From Thermoplasmata archaeon (lineage in GTDB: Archaea; Thermoplasmatota; E2; UBA202; JdFR-43): DNA of 47,689 nucleotides. Under the pieces are notes generated by a model that saw nothing but the letters and a program-made list of their open reading frames with translations, did not search any database and had not been told where the DNA came from. Positions 2,646 through 25,314 of the stretch are shown piece by piece; within the stretch, counting starts at the first letter, position 1, and each line of letters opens with the position of its first letter. The stretch is from assembly GCA_021162065.1 (NCBI GenBank), contig JAGGZK010000044.1, positions 1 to 47,689 of the forward strand, written 5' to 3'. A program made the position numbers and the translations under genes.

Positions 2646-3286
2646 GTTCTCACATGAATGGCCATATGATCCCTTGCATAGGGCGCCAGTTTTATGGCCT
2701 CCACTACCTCATACTCGCTCTCCATATTTTTTACCACCTCTCTGAAAACCCTCTCGGGCTTCTTTGATATGTCAATGCTCCTCGCCTTCACCATTATTAT
2801 TCCTTCGCCAATGTCAAACCTCTCCATGTTCCTCGTGAATATCTCCACCTGATTTCTCTGGGCTATGTCCTGATAAAGCAAATTCGCCTCCTCCACCACA
2901 GCCCCATATTCCTCGGGTTTTGAGGCATTGGCCATTATGGGAAAAAGATTTTTCCTTTCCTGACTGAGTTTAACAAAATTTTTCATGGGTTTGAAGGCGA
3001 TATCGATGCCATATATTATCCCGTCGGTGATAATATCCGAAAAATGACTGGCTGTCGTGCCACTTGCAACCCCCAGATACAGCAACCTCGTTTCCTTTGT
3101 GAAGGGAAAATGCTTCATGCCCTTTAATATAAAGGCGGCCATCTTGCTCCTGTAGGGATTCCATGAGCGATATTCCACGCCCTGCACCCTAACCAGTCTC
3201 TCATTGTAAACCTTCCTCCCCGGAACCATGTTCACTGTGTAAATCCTGTTCCTGTCCCTGTAAACCCCTTCAAACACCTTTTTCAT
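2642..3286 (-). CDS. flpA: Fibrillarin-like rRNA/tRNA 2'-O-methyltransferase
   Basis: This is archaeal fibrillarin, 214 residues and full length. It is the SAM-dependent catalytic subunit of the box C/D sRNP, which 2'-O-methylates rRNA and tRNA at guide-specified sites together with Nop5 and L7Ae. Seen in the sequence: the N-terminal VNMVPGRKVYNERLV segment, the WNPYRSKMAA motif, the SAM loop LYLGVASGTTASH, the GIDIAFKP strand, and the conserved C-terminal end HMAIHVRT. In many archaea the partner gene nop5 lies next door; here it does not, and the downstream neighbour is a CDF transporter overlapping by 4 nt. Confidence 0.96.
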   Translation of the reverse strand: MKKVFEGVYRDRNRIYTVNMVPGRKVYNERLVRVQGVEYRSWNPYRSKMAAFILKGMKHFPFTKETRLLYLGVASGTTASHFSDIITDGIIYGIDIAFKPMKNFVKLSQERKNLFPIMANASKPEEYGAVVEEANLLYQDIAQRNQVEIFTRNMERFDIGEGIIMVKARSIDISKKPERVFREVVKNMESEYEVVEAIKLAPYARDHMAIHVRT

Positions 3287-3301
3287 GATGATAAACCGCT
3301 C

Positions 3302-4525
3302 TCATTTTAATTTTCTTTCTATCATCCCGCATGCTATGGATAACGCATCGAAAGTGGGCGCCACCACCGGCGCATAGGCATTCTCCATCCTCGCCATCTC
3401 CCTCACGTTCATTTCATTGTATATCGCCACCGCCATCCTGTCTACTATGGCTGCTGCACCGCTGCCGACCGCCTGGCACCCGAGTATTTTTCCATCCCCA
3501 TCGGCCACCACCTTTACCACAATGCTTTTCCCCTCCATGTAGTGGGGCAAATCCTTTCCGGAGTATTTTGCGGATATGCTTCCCTTCGCCTCCCTCTCCA
3601 GCAATCCCACGGCTGCAATCTCCATTCCAAAGATTCTGGTTGTTCTGGACAGCACCGGAGGAAGCATCTCTTCATTTCCTCCTGCAGCATTTATGCCTGC
3701 AGTTCTCCCCTGGCGTGCTGCTATGCTTCCCAGCCCAACATTTATTTTCCTTCCGAAGAAATCCGTTATGGAAGTGCAATCGCCAGCAGCATATATGCCG
3801 TCCATGCCTGCCTCGCATTTCATATTAACATCCATGACTCTGCTCTCCTTCACCACCATCGGCCTGTTCCCCGTTGCCACCACCACCATATCCGCCCTGT
3901 ATTCCTCATCCGCAATCACAACACCATCCTCCACCGCCTCCACCCTGCATCCCGTCTCTATATCCACATCAATATTTTTTCTGATGTGGGAAGCAATGTC
4001 CCCATCCACCATGGCAGGAAGTATGGATGGCATGTATTCCAGTATTTTAACCTCCAAACCCATCTCATGAAATGACTCTGCCAGCTCCATTCCTATAAGC
4101 CCCGCCCCAATTATGATTATGTCTCTCGCCTTCTTCGCCTCCTCTCTTATCTTAATAGCGTCTTCCATTGTTCTTAAAAAATATGCCCCCTCCGCTGGAA
4201 AGGGGCTCGCTGGCATTGCTCCAGTAGCCACAATAATGGCGTCATAGCTCTCCTCGCTTCCCTCAATCACTCTCGCCTCCATATCAACGGCATCCACCCT
4301 CTCCTCCCTGTATTCAATCCGCTGCCTTCTGAACCACTCCGGTGAAAACTCCACTATCCTATCGGGCTCCATCATCCCCCTGACCACATATGGAAGTGCG
4401 CATTTGGAGTACTGGCCATATCCCTCGCCATCATAAAGCACGATTTCCGCATCCCTCGCCGTTTTCCTGGCAAACTGGGCAGCCGTGCCGCCCGCCGCCC
4501 CGCATCCTATTATGGCTATTTTCAT
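3302..4525 (-). CDS. FAD/NAD(P)-dependent disulfide reductase, CoA-disulfide reductase / NADH oxidase type
   Basis: This 407-residue flavoprotein has an FAD-binding motif at the N-terminus (IIGCGAAGG), a central NAD(P)-binding motif (IIIIGAGLIGMELAE), and the second FAD motif GIYAAGDCT. A single redox cysteine, C42 in YSKCALPYVV, sits where CoA-disulfide reductases and NADH oxidases (Nox/CoADR) carry theirs, so CoA disulfide, persulfide or oxygen reduction is plausible. It is somewhat shorter than the roughly 440-residue norm and has no C-terminal rhodanese domain. Its start overlaps the response-regulator stop by 4 nt, making it the last gene of a PAS sensor-receiver-flavoprotein operon; redox-linked signalling is an inference from that arrangement. 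Confidence 0.88.
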   Translation of the reverse strand: MKIAIIGCGAAGGTAAQFARKTARDAEIVLYDGEGYGQYSKCALPYVVRGMMEPDRIVEFSPEWFRRQRIEYREERVDAVDMEARVIEGSEESYDAIIVATGAMPASPFPAEGAYFLRTMEDAIKIREEAKKARDIIIIGAGLIGMELAESFHEMGLEVKILEYMPSILPAMVDGDIASHIRKNIDVDIETGCRVEAVEDGVVIADEEYRADMVVVATGNRPMVVKESRVMDVNMKCEAGMDGIYAAGDCTSITDFFGRKINVGLGSIAARQGRTAGINAAGGNEEMLPPVLSRTTRIFGMEIAAVGLLEREAKGSISAKYSGKDLPHYMEGKSIVVKVVADGDGKILGCQAVGSGAAAIVDRMAVAIYNEMNVREMARMENAYAPVVAPTFDALSIACGMIERKLK

Positions 4526-13316: not shown

Positions 13317-13372
13317 CTGCCATAAGAGTTTAAATAGGTAAATCCATATAAAATTGAAGGAGATAATTGGAA

Positions 13373-14149
13373 ATGATGTCCTCAGAAACCAGCATGATAG
13401 GGAAATTTAAACTTGATGATATTTATTGTGGGGACTCACTAAAGTTAATGAAAGAGATACCTCCCGCTACGATAGATTTAATTGTGACTGATCCTCCTTT
13501 TGCTATAGATTTTAAAGCAAAAAGAAATAATTACAATAGAACCCAAGAAAGAGTTCTGGAGGGTTATAACGAAATTCCAAAAGAAAAATACTATGAATTC
13601 AGTGTGGAATGGATGAAAGAAGCATATCGCATCCTCAAAAAAACAGGGAGTATGTATGTTTTTTCAGGATGGACAAACCTTAAAGATATTTTGAATGCTC
13701 TTGATGATGTGGGGTTTATTACAATAAATCATTTGATATGGAAATACCAATTTGGGGTTTTCACTAAAAGAAAATATGTTACCAGCCATTACCACATTTT
13801 ATTTGTGGTAAAGGATGAAAAGGAATACAAATTTAACAAGATTGAACATTATCCTGAAGATGTGTGGATAATCAACAGAGAATACTGGACAGGGAAAATC
13901 AAAACACCTACTAAATTACCTGTTGAGCTGGTGAAAAAAATTCTTCTGTTTAGCAGCAATGAAGGAGATATTGTATTTGATCCCTTCATAGGTTCTGGAA
14001 CAGTTGCGGTGGTTGCCAAAATGCTTGGCAGACATTATCTCGGATTTGAGATAGTTCCGGACTATTGTGAGTTTGCAAAACAGCGACTTTCCAACATCCA
14101 GATGAGCCTATTCAGCTACATAAATGGTAAAAATTTCAGAGGTGAATGA
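13373..14149 (+). CDS. Site-specific DNA methyltransferase, beta class (N6-adenine or N4-cytosine)
   Basis: The catalytic motif IV DLIVTDPPF comes early (about residue 40) and the SAM-binding motif I DPFIGSGTVAVVA comes late, with motif X-like LGFEIVPDYCEFAKQRL after it; this order defines the beta class. DPPF suggests amino-methylation of adenine (or N4-cytosine). I prefer the ATG at 13373, 9-10 nt after a GGAG ribosome binding site; an in-frame TTG at 13367 is only about 4 nt from it. The gene is followed by a probable endonuclease gene with a 1-nt gap. Both are A+T-rich compared with the neighbouring mvk and transporter genes, which suggests horizontal transfer. The target sequence cannot be read from the protein. 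Confidence 0.93.
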   Translation: MMSSETSMIGKFKLDDIYCGDSLKLMKEIPPATIDLIVTDPPFAIDFKAKRNNYNRTQERVLEGYNEIPKEKYYEFSVEWMKEAYRILKKTGSMYVFSGWTNLKDILNALDDVGFITINHLIWKYQFGVFTKRKYVTSHYHILFVVKDEKEYKFNKIEHYPEDVWIINREYWTGKIKTPTKLPVELVKKILLFSSNEGDIVFDPFIGSGTVAVVAKMLGRHYLGFEIVPDYCEFAKQRLSNIQMSLFSYINGKNFRGE

Positions 14150-14150
14150 C

Positions 14151-14759
14151 ATGTATGAAAAAGCAAGAGAAATTTTTAAGCAAATTAAGAAAGAGATAGA
14201 AAGCAAAAAATTTCAGTATAATGTCTCAGAATTCGAAAAGGCGATTCAGAAACTTGTGGGAGAGTATGACACAGCAAACTGGGAAAACAGGTTTGTAGTT
14301 GGTGGTGCATTGGAAGTTTTATTCTGTGCATTGCTTAATTCTATGAAATTTGAGTGTAAATGGCTAAAAGAAGCAAGATATGATATTGAGATTAACAATG
14401 TTAAATTTTCTCTAAAAAGCAATTTTACAGGGGGCGGGGATATCAGATTGGTTAATATTCTGGGTGACAAAAAGGCTATCTGGGATGAACCAACATTATT
14501 TTTTATAGGCGATGTAGGGATATGCTATGCTGACCCTTCCATGGGTTTACCAACAAAACATACAAGTGATGCTCTCATTGTTAAAACAAAAGATATAAAA
14601 GAAATGGTAGGAGAAAATGATGAGTGGCTCATTTCTCTTTCTATCCCCAGAAAACCAACCAATTCTGCCAAAATTAAAACGGCCAGCTTTGATGTGGCAA
14701 AATCCATCTTGGAAGAAATCAACAGCAGGTATCTAAGAAAACATTTACCTCAAATATAA
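14151..14759 (+). CDS. Probable type II restriction endonuclease paired with the methyltransferase
   Basis: This 202-residue protein is not one I can name, but its place one base after a modification methyltransferase and its size argue for the cognate restriction enzyme. A candidate PD-(D/E)xK-type core is EARYDIEINNVKFSLKSNF: an acidic residue, then a beta strand ending in S-L-K, where Ser replaces the usual Glu/Asp. The start is the ATG at 14151, 5 nt after a strong GAGGTGA ribosome binding site; the in-frame codons from 14124 overlap the methyltransferase and lack such a site. The cleavage sequence is unknown, and a restriction-modification function is inference from context. Confidence 0.75.
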   Translation: MYEKAREIFKQIKKEIESKKFQYNVSEFEKAIQKLVGEYDTANWENRFVVGGALEVLFCALLNSMKFECKWLKEARYDIEINNVKFSLKSNFTGGGDIRLVNILGDKKAIWDEPTLFFIGDVGICYADPSMGLPTKHTSDALIVKTKDIKEMVGENDEWLISLSIPRKPTNSAKIKTASFDVAKSILEEINSRYLRKHLPQI

Positions 14760-19994: not shown

Positions 19995-22499
19995 CTATCT
20001 CTTCAGTGCCTCCTTCACCATCTCCATCGCCACCTTCTTTGCCTCTTCCAGTTTGCCTGCTTTCAGCCCTGCTTGCCCTATGGTTTTTCTGCCTCCCCCT
20101 CCGCCGCCCATCTTTGCCCCTATCTCCTTTGCCATGCTGGCACAATCGATGTCCACATCTGGAGAGGATGCGATGGTGAGCATGGCCCTCTCGCCTTTAA
20201 TGTTTCCAGAGATAACGATTGCCTTTTCCTTTGTCAGTTCCTTTATGGCTGATGGAACGAGATTATCCTGCATGATTATCCTCACCCCTTCATATTCCAT
20301 CGCCGCCCCTTTACCCATATTCTTCTGAAGATTCTCCACCTCCTTCCTCGCCGCCTTCCACTCCTTCAGCAACTTTTCTGCCGCCCTTGCCACGTTCTCC
20401 GGCTGCGTTGAAAGGATGGATGCAACCTCCCTCAGCAGCTTTTCCTGCCTCTGCATGTACTCCAGCGCCCTGTCTGCGGCGCAAAATCGCAATCTCTCCA
20501 CTCCGTCCTGGAGACGCTCCGTGCCTGTTATCTTTATGAATCCTATCTCAGCCGTGTTATTCACATGTGTGCCTCCACATGCCTCAGCATCTATGCCCGG
20601 AATGTTGACAACCCTTATGATTCCTCCCTTGGGTGGGCCTCCCTGATAGAGGCGCATGCCAAACTCTCTCTCCGCCTCGTCTCTCGGCATGAAACTCTTC
20701 TTCACCTCCACCGCCCTTCTCACCATCTCGTTGGCCACCCTCTCTATCTCCCTCGCCTCCTCCTCGCTGATTCTTTTGTAATGTGTAACATCCAGCCTTG
20801 CTTCCTTCTCGTCCAACTCGCTTCCCGCCTGCCATATGTGGCTGCCGAGAATGCTTCTGGCGGCGGCATTTATGATATGCGTCGCTGTATGATGGCGCAT
20901 CATGGAATAGCGGCGTTCCCAGTCGATATTGCCTTTAACCTTTCCCTTCTTCAGCTCGCCTTCTATGTAATGAACTATGGCTTCCCCCACCTTCTCCGCC
21001 TTTGTTACCCTGACCTTCTTACCATTCTGCATCAGGTAGCCGGTATCACTTCTCTGCCCCCCTCCCTCTGGATAAAAAAGAGTGCGGTTAAGGATAACCA
21101 TGCCCTTCCCTACATGGATGATGTCTGCCTCAAATTCCGTGGCGTATTCATCTTCATAATACAGCGGCTCGGTTTTGTACCCATATGCTTTTTTCTCCTC
21201 CTTCTCCTTTTTCTCCGCCCTGAGATGGCGCTCCGCCACCATGGATTCAAAGTTTTCCGGTATATTCACCTCCGCAATTTCCCTCACCACCTCAGGATGA
21301 ATTCCATGGGAATCATACAGTTCCACAAGTTTCTCCACATCCAGTCTTCCGCTCTTTTCCAGGGCCCTCATCACCATAGCCCTTCCCTTCCTGAGCACAT
21401 TCTGGAACTTCTCCTCCTCTATCTCGAGAATCTCCTCTATCCTTGCTTTCTCATCCTTCAACTCCGGAAAGTCGGGAGAGAGATGCTCTATGTGGGCATT
21501 GACTATGGGGAACAGTCCCTCTTTATACCCTATCTTCTTCATGAAGCGAAGGGCCCTCCTTATAATCAACCTTGCCAAATAACCTGCTCCGGAATTTGAA
21601 GGAACGATACCATCCCCCAGCATGAAGGCGAGGCATCGAGCATGGTCAGCGATGGCGTAGATGGCGTGCATATCTTCCCTTGCATTTTCCCTTATCATAT
21701 CAATGGTATAGGGAAAGATGGCATCATAGACCGTATTGCTGCCATGGGTTATCCATACTATGCGCTCGAGTCCATAGCCTGTGTCCACAATTTTCATGGG
21801 CATCTCTTTATAGCGAACTCCCTTCACCTCATAGTTGCCCTTCGCATCTTCCTCCAGATTCATGAAGACAAGGGTTGCAACTTCCAGGCCATGGCTTAAC
21901 ACTTCCAAACATGCGCCTGCATTGCCTCCACCTGCCCACTCCGACTCCTTGTAGGATATGCCATCTATGCCTATGCCGGTAAAGAAATCATGGCAATATG
22001 CAGCGGTTTCCTCAGTCCAGTAAATTTTGCTGTGGTTGTTGAAGGCATGATGCCCCATCATCTCAAAGAGGGTGAGGTGCCTTCCGCTTTTCCCGACTTC
22101 ATCCAAATCATTCAGGCGGATACTCGGCTGGGAAATGGCGAGGGGATTCGCTGGCGGAGGAACCTCGCCGGATGTAACATGGGGCTGGAAATCCGCGATG
22201 GAGGCGATGGTTAGATATATATCATCCCTCCATCTCGCCACCACAGGATATCTTTTGAGGCGAGTATGGCCGTGCTTCTCAAAAAAGGAAAGGAATGCCT
22301 CCCGTGCATCGTGCAAATCCATTTTTTTGCCCACCGGATTTCCTATGAAACTGTAATCGACGCATGGAGCATCTCCACATAACCGTTGACCCTCATCCTG
22401 AGTCCAGAAATACGCGCCGCACTTCTCGCATTTCTTTCTCACAAATCCATTTTCCTTGAAGAATTTAAGTTGCAGCGTCTTCTCCAAATCAGGATGCAT
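19995..22499 (-). CDS. alaS: Alanyl-tRNA synthetase
   Basis: This is a full-length archaeal-type AlaRS, about 834 residues. The N-terminal extension carries a cysteine cluster (KKCEKCGAYFW...LCGDAPC), then the class II core (TSGEVPPPANP, FEMMGHHAFNN, GAGYLARLIIRRALRF), then the editing domain with zinc-binding RHHTATHI and EACGGTHV, and a C-terminal domain ending in the Gly-rich AKMGGGGGGRKT. It charges tRNA-Ala and clears Ser/Gly mischarging. The start at 22499 (MHPDLEKTLQLKFF) has a TATA box 18-30 nt upstream; the 21 codons before it lie over that promoter and are not family-like. Confidence 0.96.
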   Translation of the reverse strand: MHPDLEKTLQLKFFKENGFVRKKCEKCGAYFWTQDEGQRLCGDAPCVDYSFIGNPVGKKMDLHDAREAFLSFFEKHGHTRLKRYPVVARWRDDIYLTIASIADFQPHVTSGEVPPPANPLAISQPSIRLNDLDEVGKSGRHLTLFEMMGHHAFNNHSKIYWTEETAAYCHDFFTGIGIDGISYKESEWAGGGNAGACLEVLSHGLEVATLVFMNLEEDAKGNYEVKGVRYKEMPMKIVDTGYGLERIVWITHGSNTVYDAIFPYTIDMIRENAREDMHAIYAIADHARCLAFMLGDGIVPSNSGAGYLARLIIRRALRFMKKIGYKEGLFPIVNAHIEHLSPDFPELKDEKARIEEILEIEEEKFQNVLRKGRAMVMRALEKSGRLDVEKLVELYDSHGIHPEVVREIAEVNIPENFESMVAERHLRAEKKEKEEKKAYGYKTEPLYYEDEYATEFEADIIHVGKGMVILNRTLFYPEGGGQRSDTGYLMQNGKKVRVTKAEKVGEAIVHYIEGELKKGKVKGNIDWERRYSMMRHHTATHIINAAARSILGSHIWQAGSELDEKEARLDVTHYKRISEEEAREIERVANEMVRRAVEVKKSFMPRDEAEREFGMRLYQGGPPKGGIIRVVNIPGIDAEACGGTHVNNTAEIGFIKITGTERLQDGVERLRFCAADRALEYMQRQEKLLREVASILSTQPENVARAAEKLLKEWKAARKEVENLQKNMGKGAAMEYEGVRIIMQDNLVPSAIKELTKEKAIVISGNIKGERAMLTIASSPDVDIDCASMAKEIGAKMGGGGGGRKTIGQAGLKAGKLEEAKKVAMEMVKEALKR

Positions 22500-22516
22500 T
22501 GTTGTAAATATGGTAT

Positions 22517-22529
22517 GATATATATTTAT
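22517..22529 (-). promoter_or_regulatory. TATA-box promoter of alaS
   Basis: The minus strand reads AATAAATATATAT 18-30 nt upstream of the ATG at 22499, which fits a leaderless alaS transcript. Confidence 0.5.
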
Positions 22530-22564
22530 TTTCGATTTTGATGGATGAATGAAAATATTCACTT

Positions 22565-22903
22565 TTAATGAAGAATGGAATCAATTGCACTTCTTTCTTT
22601 AAAAAGAGGTTTGAATGCAGGATACATCTCCAAAAATTTTTCGAGAGTTATGCCATGGGAACATCTGATTACTGGAATGCTCTTCCATTCCTCCATGTGA
22701 AATGAGTTTATCCAAACCATATAATCTGCAAAATATCTATAGTTGGGATGCATCTGCTCTATTATTACCACACTGAATGAACCTATATCTGCCCTCGTTC
22801 CTCTCATAAAATATCCTTCACCCGTTTCTATAACAATTGGCTTGCATATTTTTATATGCTTTATTTCGACCATATAAGCAACTTTCTCTTTTGGAGGACT
22901 CAT
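22565..22903 (-). CDS. Unrecognised 112-residue protein divergent from the DpnI homologue
   Basis: I do not recognise this protein. It is soluble, with no signal peptide or membrane segment, and mixed alpha/beta in character. Notable features are two aromatic-rich stretches (MHPNYRYFADYMVWINSFHMEEW) and a CSHG motif near residue 83. The gene shares a 108-nt divergent intergenic region with the DpnI-like endonuclease and has the same A+T-rich composition, so it may have arrived with it. It could be a partner of the nuclease or a decayed fragment. Its 3' end lies 66 nt before alaS on the same strand. Confidence 0.6.
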   Translation of the reverse strand: MSPPKEKVAYMVEIKHIKICKPIVIETGEGYFMRGTRADIGSFSVVIIEQMHPNYRYFADYMVWINSFHMEEWKSIPVIRCSHGITLEKFLEMYPAFKPLFKERSAIDSILH

Positions 22904-23011
22904 ATTGAGATAATATAGATACCTGTTTAGTATTTAGTTACGGGATTTTGTAAATAAACCATAACCAACTTTTTATAGAAAAAATCAAAACCTCCTTGCA
23001 ATTATCCTTTC

Positions 23012-23782
23012 GTGGAACTATTCCTGAATGCTGAGATTGCCGCAGGATATAAAAGTCCTTCTCAGAGGGTGAGAGTGATAACTGAGAAATGGTTCGAGGA
23101 AAATATGTATTGTCCCGCCTGCCCTTCAGAAATTCTTGAGGCAGCTCCACCGAGTAAAAAGGTGATTGATTTCGTATGCCCAAGATGTGATGAAAAGTAT
23201 CAGATGAAGAGTATGGGGCATAAATTTGGAACTAAAGTCATGAACTCCGCCTATTATCCCAAAATTGAGGCGATAAAGAAAGGAACTGCCCCCAACTATG
23301 TTTTCATGCATTATGAACGCAAAGATATGAAGGTCTATGATGTAATGGTGATTCCCAGATATTTCATGTCGGAGGAAATAATAGAGAAAAGAAAGCCGCT
23401 TAGCAGCAATGCAAGAAGAGCAGGATGGATTGGCTCCAATATTTTGCTGGAAAGATTACCACAGGATGCGAGAATATACATGATAAAAGAAGGCAGAATA
23501 ATTCCGGAAAGGGATGTAAGAGAAGCATGGAAAAGATTCTCCTTTTTCAATGAAATTCCTGTTTCCTCCAAGGGATGGCTTACTGATATTATCTCTTGCA
23601 TAAGAAAACTGGATAAGAGGGAATTCACTCTCCAAGAGATGTATGAATTTGAAGATTGGCTGGGAAAGATGCATCCACAAAACAAACACATAAGGCCAAA
23701 GATAAGACAGCAGCTCCAGATTCTCAGAGACAGAGGAATACTGGAATTTATCGGCAGAGGAAGATATCGCCTAAAAATATGA
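23012..23782 (+). CDS. DpnI-family methylation-directed restriction endonuclease
   Basis: This 256-residue protein aligns by eye along its whole length with Streptococcus DpnI, which cuts GATC only when the adenine is methylated. Shared features: N-terminus MELxxNxE with TEKWFEENMYCPAC; a four-Cys zinc site (C34, C37, C56, C59); the nuclease core with D53 and K66; KPLSSNARRAGWIGSNI; and a C-terminal winged helix ending IRQQLQILRDRGILEFIGRGRYR. The DpnI catalytic triad is D53-E64-K66; here position 64 is Gln (EKYQMKS). QxK variants occur in active nucleases such as the Mrr group, so activity is possible. Translation starts at GTG. No Dam-type gene sits beside it. Confidence 0.93.
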   Translation: MELFLNAEIAAGYKSPSQRVRVITEKWFEENMYCPACPSEILEAAPPSKKVIDFVCPRCDEKYQMKSMGHKFGTKVMNSAYYPKIEAIKKGTAPNYVFMHYERKDMKVYDVMVIPRYFMSEEIIEKRKPLSSNARRAGWIGSNILLERLPQDARIYMIKEGRIIPERDVREAWKRFSFFNEIPVSSKGWLTDIISCIRKLDKREFTLQEMYEFEDWLGKMHPQNKHIRPKIRQQLQILRDRGILEFIGRGRYRLKI

Positions 23783-23800: not shown

Positions 23801-25273
23801 CTAACTTATCACGTTGTACCAGGTGCCGTCGAGCATTATTTTGAAGACGAAGTCGCCCATGAATTCAATATCGCCGTCGATGCTGAAGAAGGGGAAGGAT
23901 GACTGCCATCCCACCGTATAATCTCTTGCCCTCATCATGCTGGACTCTATCACCACCCCAAAGGTGTCCTGGTAGGTATAGTTGAAGTGATATGATGCCA
24001 GCCACTCCCAGTTGGTATCCATGGATATGTAACCGGGTATGCTCATGCTCCAGTTCAGTTCAAAATGCTCCGCCTTTATCTCCGCATAGTAGTCAAAATA
24101 AGCGTTCTCCATCTCCGCCTTAATCTCCGCCTTCACCCCTGCAAATCCATCTATAGTAAGATAGCCAATGCTTTCCATGCTCCATCTCACTATGCACTCA
24201 CCGCTCAGATTTGTTACTGAAAATGACAGCGTTGGATCAACCAGGGCATTGGCAACTATGAACTTTGTCTTTCTCTCATCCACATTTATATCCAGATAGC
24301 CATTCTGGTTAAAGCTCACCGCAAGGTGACGGGGCAGATACTCAATTCTTGTGATGAACCCCATATTGCTCCCTATTATCATTGTCACATTGAACTCGTC
24401 ATCGGCATCATACTCAAAGTAGTTCTCCGAGAAGCCAACGGTGAAGGCCATCCTCTCCGGAATGTCCTCTATGGTGAGATTGACGAAGGCATTGCCGTTC
24501 ATCTCATATCTCAACCTCAGGGTCTCTTCCTGCGGGGCATTCCTTTCTATGGATATGCCGAATCTGCTCAACTCTATGTGGGGAGTAACCTTAATCATCG
24601 TATTCTGGGCGGGGAAGTAATCTATCATAACCCTGTGTTCTCCCACGGCGGCATTGGAGTACTCCAGTATGGCAGATACGTTCTCCACCCCACCCTCAAA
24701 AACAGGCTCCATGTTTATGTAGAATTCCGGGTCGTGGTCGTAGAATAGATATGGCACCACTGTAACGACTTCCCTGACTTCCTTCGGAATCTCCTCGTTC
24801 TCAGCCGAGTAATATCCAATCCTGAAATTGTGCTCTCCCATTATCACCCCGCCGAAGGATATCTCAAACTCGCCGTTCTTTATTTCATCCCCGAGGCGTA
24901 TCACCTTTAACGCCAGAGATATGGAGAGCACCATGCCAACATCTGTGGACTGAAGCAATGGCAGCGGGATTATGCTTACCTTGATATCATTTCCATTCAC
25001 ACCCGTATCAGGATTGTTGTCCACATCTATGCCGGAAAATATGGACTGCAGCACGGGCGTGTCCTTCTCTATTCCATTGTAGACGGTATGTATGAAAAAG
25101 CCCCCCTGCATGTAGTCATGCCAGGATGACCATCTCGCATTTCTGAGGATGGAAGAATGGCTTTCTTCCGCATCATGAACAACATCGCCTTTCTTTATCC
25201 TGATATCATTCACACTGGCTATCGGGAGAAGCATCAGCATTGCCACAATCATAACCGCCAGTTTTTTCTGCAT
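23801..25273 (-). CDS. Large secreted beta-rich protein of unknown function
   Basis: This is a roughly 490-residue exported protein with a signal peptide (MQKKLAVMIVAMLMLLPIASV). I recognise no family. The mature part is almost entirely predicted beta strands with alternating hydrophobic and polar residues. An early GIDVDNNPDTGVNGNDIKVS segment is rich in Asp/Asn and could bind calcium. There is no C-terminal anchor. The start at 25273 gives a good signal peptide; an ATG five codons upstream is less likely. It follows the C25 protease gene by 41 nt on the same strand, so the two are probably co-transcribed, and this protein could be a cell-surface partner of the protease (inference). Confidence 0.78.
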   Translation of the reverse strand: MQKKLAVMIVAMLMLLPIASVNDIRIKKGDVVHDAEESHSSILRNARWSSWHDYMQGGFFIHTVYNGIEKDTPVLQSIFSGIDVDNNPDTGVNGNDIKVSIIPLPLLQSTDVGMVLSISLALKVIRLGDEIKNGEFEISFGGVIMGEHNFRIGYYSAENEEIPKEVREVVTVVPYLFYDHDPEFYINMEPVFEGGVENVSAILEYSNAAVGEHRVMIDYFPAQNTMIKVTPHIELSRFGISIERNAPQEETLRLRYEMNGNAFVNLTIEDIPERMAFTVGFSENYFEYDADDEFNVTMIIGSNMGFITRIEYLPRHLAVSFNQNGYLDINVDERKTKFIVANALVDPTLSFSVTNLSGECIVRWSMESIGYLTIDGFAGVKAEIKAEMENAYFDYYAEIKAEHFELNWSMSIPGYISMDTNWEWLASYHFNYTYQDTFGVVIESSMMRARDYTVGWQSSFPFFSIDGDIEFMGDFVFKIMLDGTWYNVIS

Positions 25274-25314
25274 GATAATAAATAGCAAACTTATTTATTA
25301 ATTTCCCTCTCATT

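Follow-up and report, generated by a model that had tools for sequence, protein, structure and literature searches.

The window, as we call the whole stretch of 47,689 nucleotides from a Thermoplasmata archaeon analyzed here, contains a gene for an end-to-end homologue of DpnI with glutamine instead of glutamate at position 64, and judging from its sequence this gene probably encodes a working endonuclease that depends on Gm6ATC and belongs to a PD-QXK subfamily of DpnI. DpnI is the textbook bacterial enzyme that cuts methylated GATC, and R.DpnI belongs to the PD-EXK type. The gene and the parts of it that matter for its function are the following.

23012–23782, + strand: Q-type DpnI homologue (dpnI), GTG start, 256 aa, assigned by homology and fold
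Residues 1–180: N-terminal PD-QXK catalytic domain with zinc site
Residues 185–253: C-terminal winged helix
23168–23170, + strand: codon GAT of the catalytic Asp53, by alignment to DpnI D53
23201–23203, + strand: codon CAG of Gln64, at the position of DpnI Glu64, by sequence and alignment
23207–23209, + strand: codon AAG of the catalytic Lys66, by alignment to DpnI

A phmmer search with the window protein against all PDB sequences gave R.DpnI (4esj/4kyw) as the sole significant match, with an E-value of 8.5e-63 over residues 1–253 and 39% identity, and the same chain contains both Pfam domains, DpnI (PF06044; 207.6 bits, cut-off 26.7) and the winged helix DpnI_C (PF17726; 109.1 bits, cut-off 23), confirming the original prediction of a full-length DpnI homologue in an archaeon. 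Moreover, the PADLOC model mREase_II for type II methyl-directed enzymes matches with 5.3e-85, and the AlphaFold model, for which 40 window and locus sequences served as input, has a mean pLDDT of 94.3 and a TM score of 0.88 to 4esj_B. Residue numbering is that of DpnI up to about residue 104, after which one inserted residue makes W139 the counterpart of DpnI W138; all four zinc cysteines (34/37/56/59) as well as D53 and K66 therefore stand at identical numbering, as had been claimed. The base- and methyl-reading residues of DpnI (S17, Q18, R126, L129, R135, W138 and G140; for their roles in target reading and in the methyl cleft see PMC4117772) are all found unchanged in the window protein, as are the DNA-binding positions 229 and 231 of the winged helix. 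Across the relatives with Gln at position 64, the Q-types, the target-reading residues of the catalytic domain and winged-helix positions 229 and 231 are almost invariant, albeit conservation of the helix in the GTDB loci is partly due to selection, as the scan was seeded with the winged-helix motif KIRQQLQ. Glu at position 64, as in the PD-EXK site of R.DpnI, is absent, and the active site reads D53...Q64-M65-K66, that is D...QXK, so the Glu64-to-Gln exchange read from the CAG codon was correct. Searches of Pfam and PDB led to DpnI families only and revealed no sequence homology to the Mrr or BisI families; by sequence the window protein is thus a member of the DpnI family that shares the PD-QXK motif without belonging to Mrr or BisI.

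Is Gln64 a damaged Glu64 or an alternative to it? We looked for PF06044 in 390 genomes of the phylum to which the window belongs and also scanned a family alignment against GTDB genomes, taking the best 80 of 526 matches. Among the 101 distinct relatives 38 have Gln at position 64, 63 have Glu and none has any other residue, proportions that describe this sample of best matches and not the whole DpnI family. On a maximum-likelihood tree built without column 64 the Glu/Gln trait requires two changes, both forced by well-supported branches, as compared to about 31 for random labels. Parsimony changes per column have a median of 22.5, column 64 has 2, and D53 and K66 have none in the 101 sequences. 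A comparison of dpnI in the related genomes G044 and G143 gave a dN/dS of 0.045, indicating purifying selection. Since only Glu and Gln occur, with two changes on the tree and such a low dN/dS, Gln64 is a lasting alternative to Glu and does not reflect damage to the window gene. It is no peculiarity of this gene, and a likely loss of catalysis is not supported either, as the restriction of position 64 to Glu and Gln, the invariance of D53 and K66 and the dN/dS point to a working site.

The original prediction proposed to check whether further archaeal homologues have this exchange, and it is indeed present in nearly all those found outside the archaeal family f14, namely in Thermoplasmata relatives, Hadesarchaea, Altiarchaeota, Woesearchaeota and Methanoperedens, and also in several bacterial ones (Nitrospirota, Acidobacteriota, Planctomycetota and one deltaproteobacterium). 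Glu is found in DpnI and most bacterial sequences and, separately, in f14. Going by the sequences, Glu at position 64 defines only the tested branch of DpnI homologues and not the homologous family. A Gln branch that is as deep as the Glu branch and extends over archaea, Nitrospirota, Acidobacteriota and Planctomycetota would show that one nuclease family can swap its metal ligand and retain the new one for very long times. Q-type DpnIs may be enzymes with different metal use and offer a natural test of the choice between Glu and Gln. The literature searched, which did not include the 2012 R.DpnI paper or REBASE, contained no text on the Gln branch and no biochemistry on any Q-type member. In one Q-type clade of the same phylum (L002, L012, L015, L016 and L018) the stretch from C56 to Q64 contains an insertion and the fourth zinc cysteine has been lost.

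How could a DpnI act with Gln at this position? Asp53 and Glu64 are the ligands of the site-1 metal in R.DpnI, and Lys66 lies beside the attacking water (PMC4117772). In NhoI and Eco15I of the BisI family an Asp and the Gln of a QVK or QIK motif serve as metal ligands, and the authors state that the acidic ligand can be substituted by Gln (PMC11347163); PD-QXK enzymes further include MspJI and Mrr (PMC12707154). The earlier statement that QxK occurs in active nucleases is thus well founded for the BisI, Mrr and MspJI groups (PMC11347163; PMC12707154). In the window protein Asp53 and Gln64, the latter through its side-chain oxygen, would bind the catalytic metal, and Lys66 would place the attacking water. 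The catalytic and the winged-helix domain would both read G-m6A-T-C, and cleavage would occur within this sequence in DNA arriving from hosts with Dam-type methylation, giving the gene a presumptive role in defence. Host DNA would be spared because its own genome appears to encode no Dam-type methyltransferase. That the protein is an active nuclease is suggested by the end-to-end homology and fold, by the evolutionary pattern at positions 53, 64 and 66, by the low dN/dS, by the retention of all reported reading residues including winged-helix positions 229 and 231, by the metal-binding Gln of active BisI enzymes, and by the distribution of Dam.

In the window's own genome, which is 96% complete, no Dam-type methyltransferase (TIGR00571) was found, and none of the 21 Q-type genomes in the phylum sample has Dam over the cut-off. 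Among 19 further Q-type genomes Dam occurs in one, the Altiarchaeales genome G404, in which dpnI (L080, about 2840–3605) is interrupted by an in-frame TAG at the position of Y33; the same bin encodes two full Dam-type methyltransferases. Since Dam is present in 38 of the 390 genomes, about 4 Q-type genomes with Dam would be expected by chance and 1 was seen; mutual avoidance of Dam and DpnI thus goes in the right direction but the cases are too few to be statistically secure, which counts against the active-nuclease reading. GATC content was considered as a sign of activity and rejected. The window contains 30 GATC sites where 168 are expected, but strong depletion is shared by most genomes of the family and of the order, to a similar degree with and without dpnI, and 40 further stretches of the phylum showed no difference (p 0.92); nor did GATC content differ between Q-type loci and those with Glu, the E-type loci (p 0.18). 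CTAG is depleted as well in the window and in genomes of the same family.

The claim that dpnI has no methyltransferase partner holds for the adjacent genes, but a methyltransferase gene is located 8–9 kb away, and at other loci methyltransferases lie much closer to dpnI.

13367–14149, + strand: beta-class DNA methyltransferase (PF01555), 35% GC
To 14759, + strand: 211-aa ORF overlapping the methyltransferase gene, no family match, 35% GC
L082 6776–7657, L110 6270–7142 and L117 1793–3106: intact DpnA-like methyltransferases beside Q-type dpnI

The genes at 13367–14759 are likely a separate restriction-modification pair. The record of pSRQ700, a plasmid with a DpnII-like GATC system, contains in a row a Dam-like gene, the second methyltransferase M2 and a type II endonuclease. 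The window's PF01555 enzyme is only distantly similar to M2 (70/236 identical), whereas the three DpnA-like methyltransferases, encoded 11–32 bp from dpnI, are 46–55% identical to it. At the E-type loci L090, L100, L119, L124 and L129 Dam or DpnA-like genes are found as fragments only, and in Flavobacterium (L101 4982–8328) an E-type dpnI is flanked by Dam-like and DpnA-like methyltransferase genes that are apparently intact. If the intact enzymes of L082, L110 and L117 act on GATC, the Q-type proteins beside them could not be freely active Gm6ATC cutters, and this conflict, which speaks against the active-nuclease reading, keeps other readings alive.

Q-types could be nucleases with another requirement, for example for GATC that is unmethylated or modified in another way, and some could be the restriction half of an ordinary restriction-modification pair. 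We consider this unlikely for the window protein, in which the methyl cleft (L129, R135, W138, G140) is intact and whose gene is not itself adjoined by a methyltransferase, even though 11 of the 23 named Q-type loci have a complete or partial N6/N4 methyltransferase within 1.5 kb, as compared to 13 of 57 E-type loci, where fragments are frequent, and the group B methyltransferases show 46–55% identity to the M2 of a restriction operon. The group-A methyltransferase, for its part, occurs also without dpnI, which weakens this reading; as an obligate partner of dpnI it was rejected on the same ground. Alternatively, the protein could be a catalytically inactive reader of methyl-GATC, a binding protein or regulator whose metal site was removed by the Gln. 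In favor of this, R.DpnI binds its metal directly through Glu64 (PMC4117772), the residues that read DNA and methyl groups are retained, and a non-cutter would tolerate the intact DpnA-like methyltransferases found next to some Q-type genes; for reading alone, however, neither an invariant D53 and K66 nor a position 64 limited to Glu and Gln would be needed, and PD-QXK sites are active in other families, so that such a reader seems quite improbable.

An active nuclease also leaves unaccounted for a conserved small neighbour, which together with dpnI occupies a variable site beside the gene for an alanyl-tRNA synthetase-like protein.

19995–22562, − strand: alanyl-tRNA synthetase-like gene (alaS), bordering the variable site on one side
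22565–22903, − strand: 112-aa ORF, candidate dpnI partner, head-to-head with dpnI
22904–23011: divergent intergenic region of 108 bases, presumed to contain both promoters
23801–25288, − strand: 495-aa gene without Pfam match, other border of the variable site

The small ORF is head-to-head with dpnI in the window and in G143, G048 and G157, tail-to-tail in a Methanocellales bin (L068), and adjoins dpnI in G044 across a contig break. Strong matches were found in 5 of the 390 genomes, all of the same family and all dpnI-positive; within the family this amounts to 5 of 6 dpnI-positive and none of 11 dpnI-negative genomes (hypergeometric p about 0.001, kinship ignored). The description of dpnI as standing alone is thus accurate as to an adjacent methyltransferase but overlooked this conserved head-to-head ORF. 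In a Hadesarchaea bin a relative of the 112-aa protein, encoded on another contig than that genome's dpnI, is tail-to-tail with a NucS_C nuclease-domain protein (L234 6483–7764) that has a further N-terminal domain without family assignment. For the 112-aa protein no Pfam or PDB sequence matches, no fold match at E<=0.001 and no viral or plasmid relatives were found; it has a weak match to PHROG 9322 (E 0.002). A second family of small proteins (80–108 aa, 'YIFITNEGYTYQP...'), without Pfam match, is encoded just upstream of Q-type dpnI at three loci.

L014 1151–1465, − strand: member of the second small-protein family
L004 1113–1436, + strand: member of the second small-protein family
L085 5650–5889, − strand: member of the second small-protein family

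The gene order of the window is kept in G143, which belongs to another genus (alaS, small ORF, dpnI, and homologues of the genes at 23801, 25315 and 28006), and is seen in G044 across a contig break. In G111 the homologue of the 23801 gene directly precedes alaS, leaving the site empty; G261 has a group-A methyltransferase in front of alaS, and in G187 the 23801 homologue is followed by dpnI and, head-to-head at the contig end, by the start of a similar methyltransferase, the N-termini of the G187 and G261 enzymes having been compared by eye. On the tree dpnI of the window's family groups with the sequences of its order. The varying site and this grouping suggest long residence with gain and loss instead of recent arrival, so that of the proposed transfer as a free-standing gene long-term mobility is plausible, the site being empty or differently filled in sister genomes, but recent transfer is not supported. 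Accordingly, a recently acquired, decaying foreign gene, as could be imagined from the GC content (40.3% as compared to 46.5% for the whole window and 47–54% for the neighbours) and the patchy occurrence in 6 of 17 genomes of the family, can be dismissed as highly improbable, as it is contradicted by the Gln in all clade relatives, the intact frame, the tree grouping, the gene order shared with another genus and purifying selection among close relatives. Carriage by phages or plasmids was rejected as well: phages and viral contigs gave only partial matches to the winged helix, and the Neisseria matches in the plasmid set are E-type and on chromosome-sized records. It is conceivable, though we advance it only tentatively, that Q-type dpnI and the divergent ORF form a two-gene defence cassette moving in and out of the site beside alaS, in which the 112-aa protein would be a controller or inhibitor, or an added effector, replacing the methyltransferase of other Q-type loci. 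The conserved small neighbour may thus be a lead on how stand-alone nucleases are held in check.

Among known systems R.DpnI of Streptococcus pneumoniae, a type IIM m6A-dependent enzyme (4esj, 4kyw), has both domains, the zinc site, D53, K66 and the reading residues in common with the window protein, which differs in Gln64, in its archaeal chromosomal site, in the conserved divergent 112-aa neighbour and in that its activity is a prediction. FcyTI and Psp4BI are stand-alone PD-(D/E)XK-wH proteins of the DpnI family, of which FcyTI is m6A-dependent (PMC11037411); both are bacterial and 58% identical to DpnI, whereas the window protein is 39% identical to it and of the Gln branch. The BisI family (NhoI, Eco15I; PD-QXK, m5C-dependent) provides the example of Asp and Gln as metal ligands in an active modification-dependent nuclease (PMC11347163), and Eco15I is a weak fold match to the window model (E 0.0095). 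BisI enzymes, however, recognize methylated cytosine in GCNGC, lack a DpnI-type winged helix and have no detected sequence homology to the window protein. Finally, the pneumococcal DpnI/DpnII/DpnIII cassettes (PMC12707154) place alternative restriction genes in one chromosomal site, as seen beside alaS. Here the alternatives (an empty site, dpnI with the small ORF, or methyltransferase genes) are distributed between archaeal genera and not strains, and, unlike in the pneumococcal cassettes, action on GATC is only putative for the contents of the site other than dpnI.
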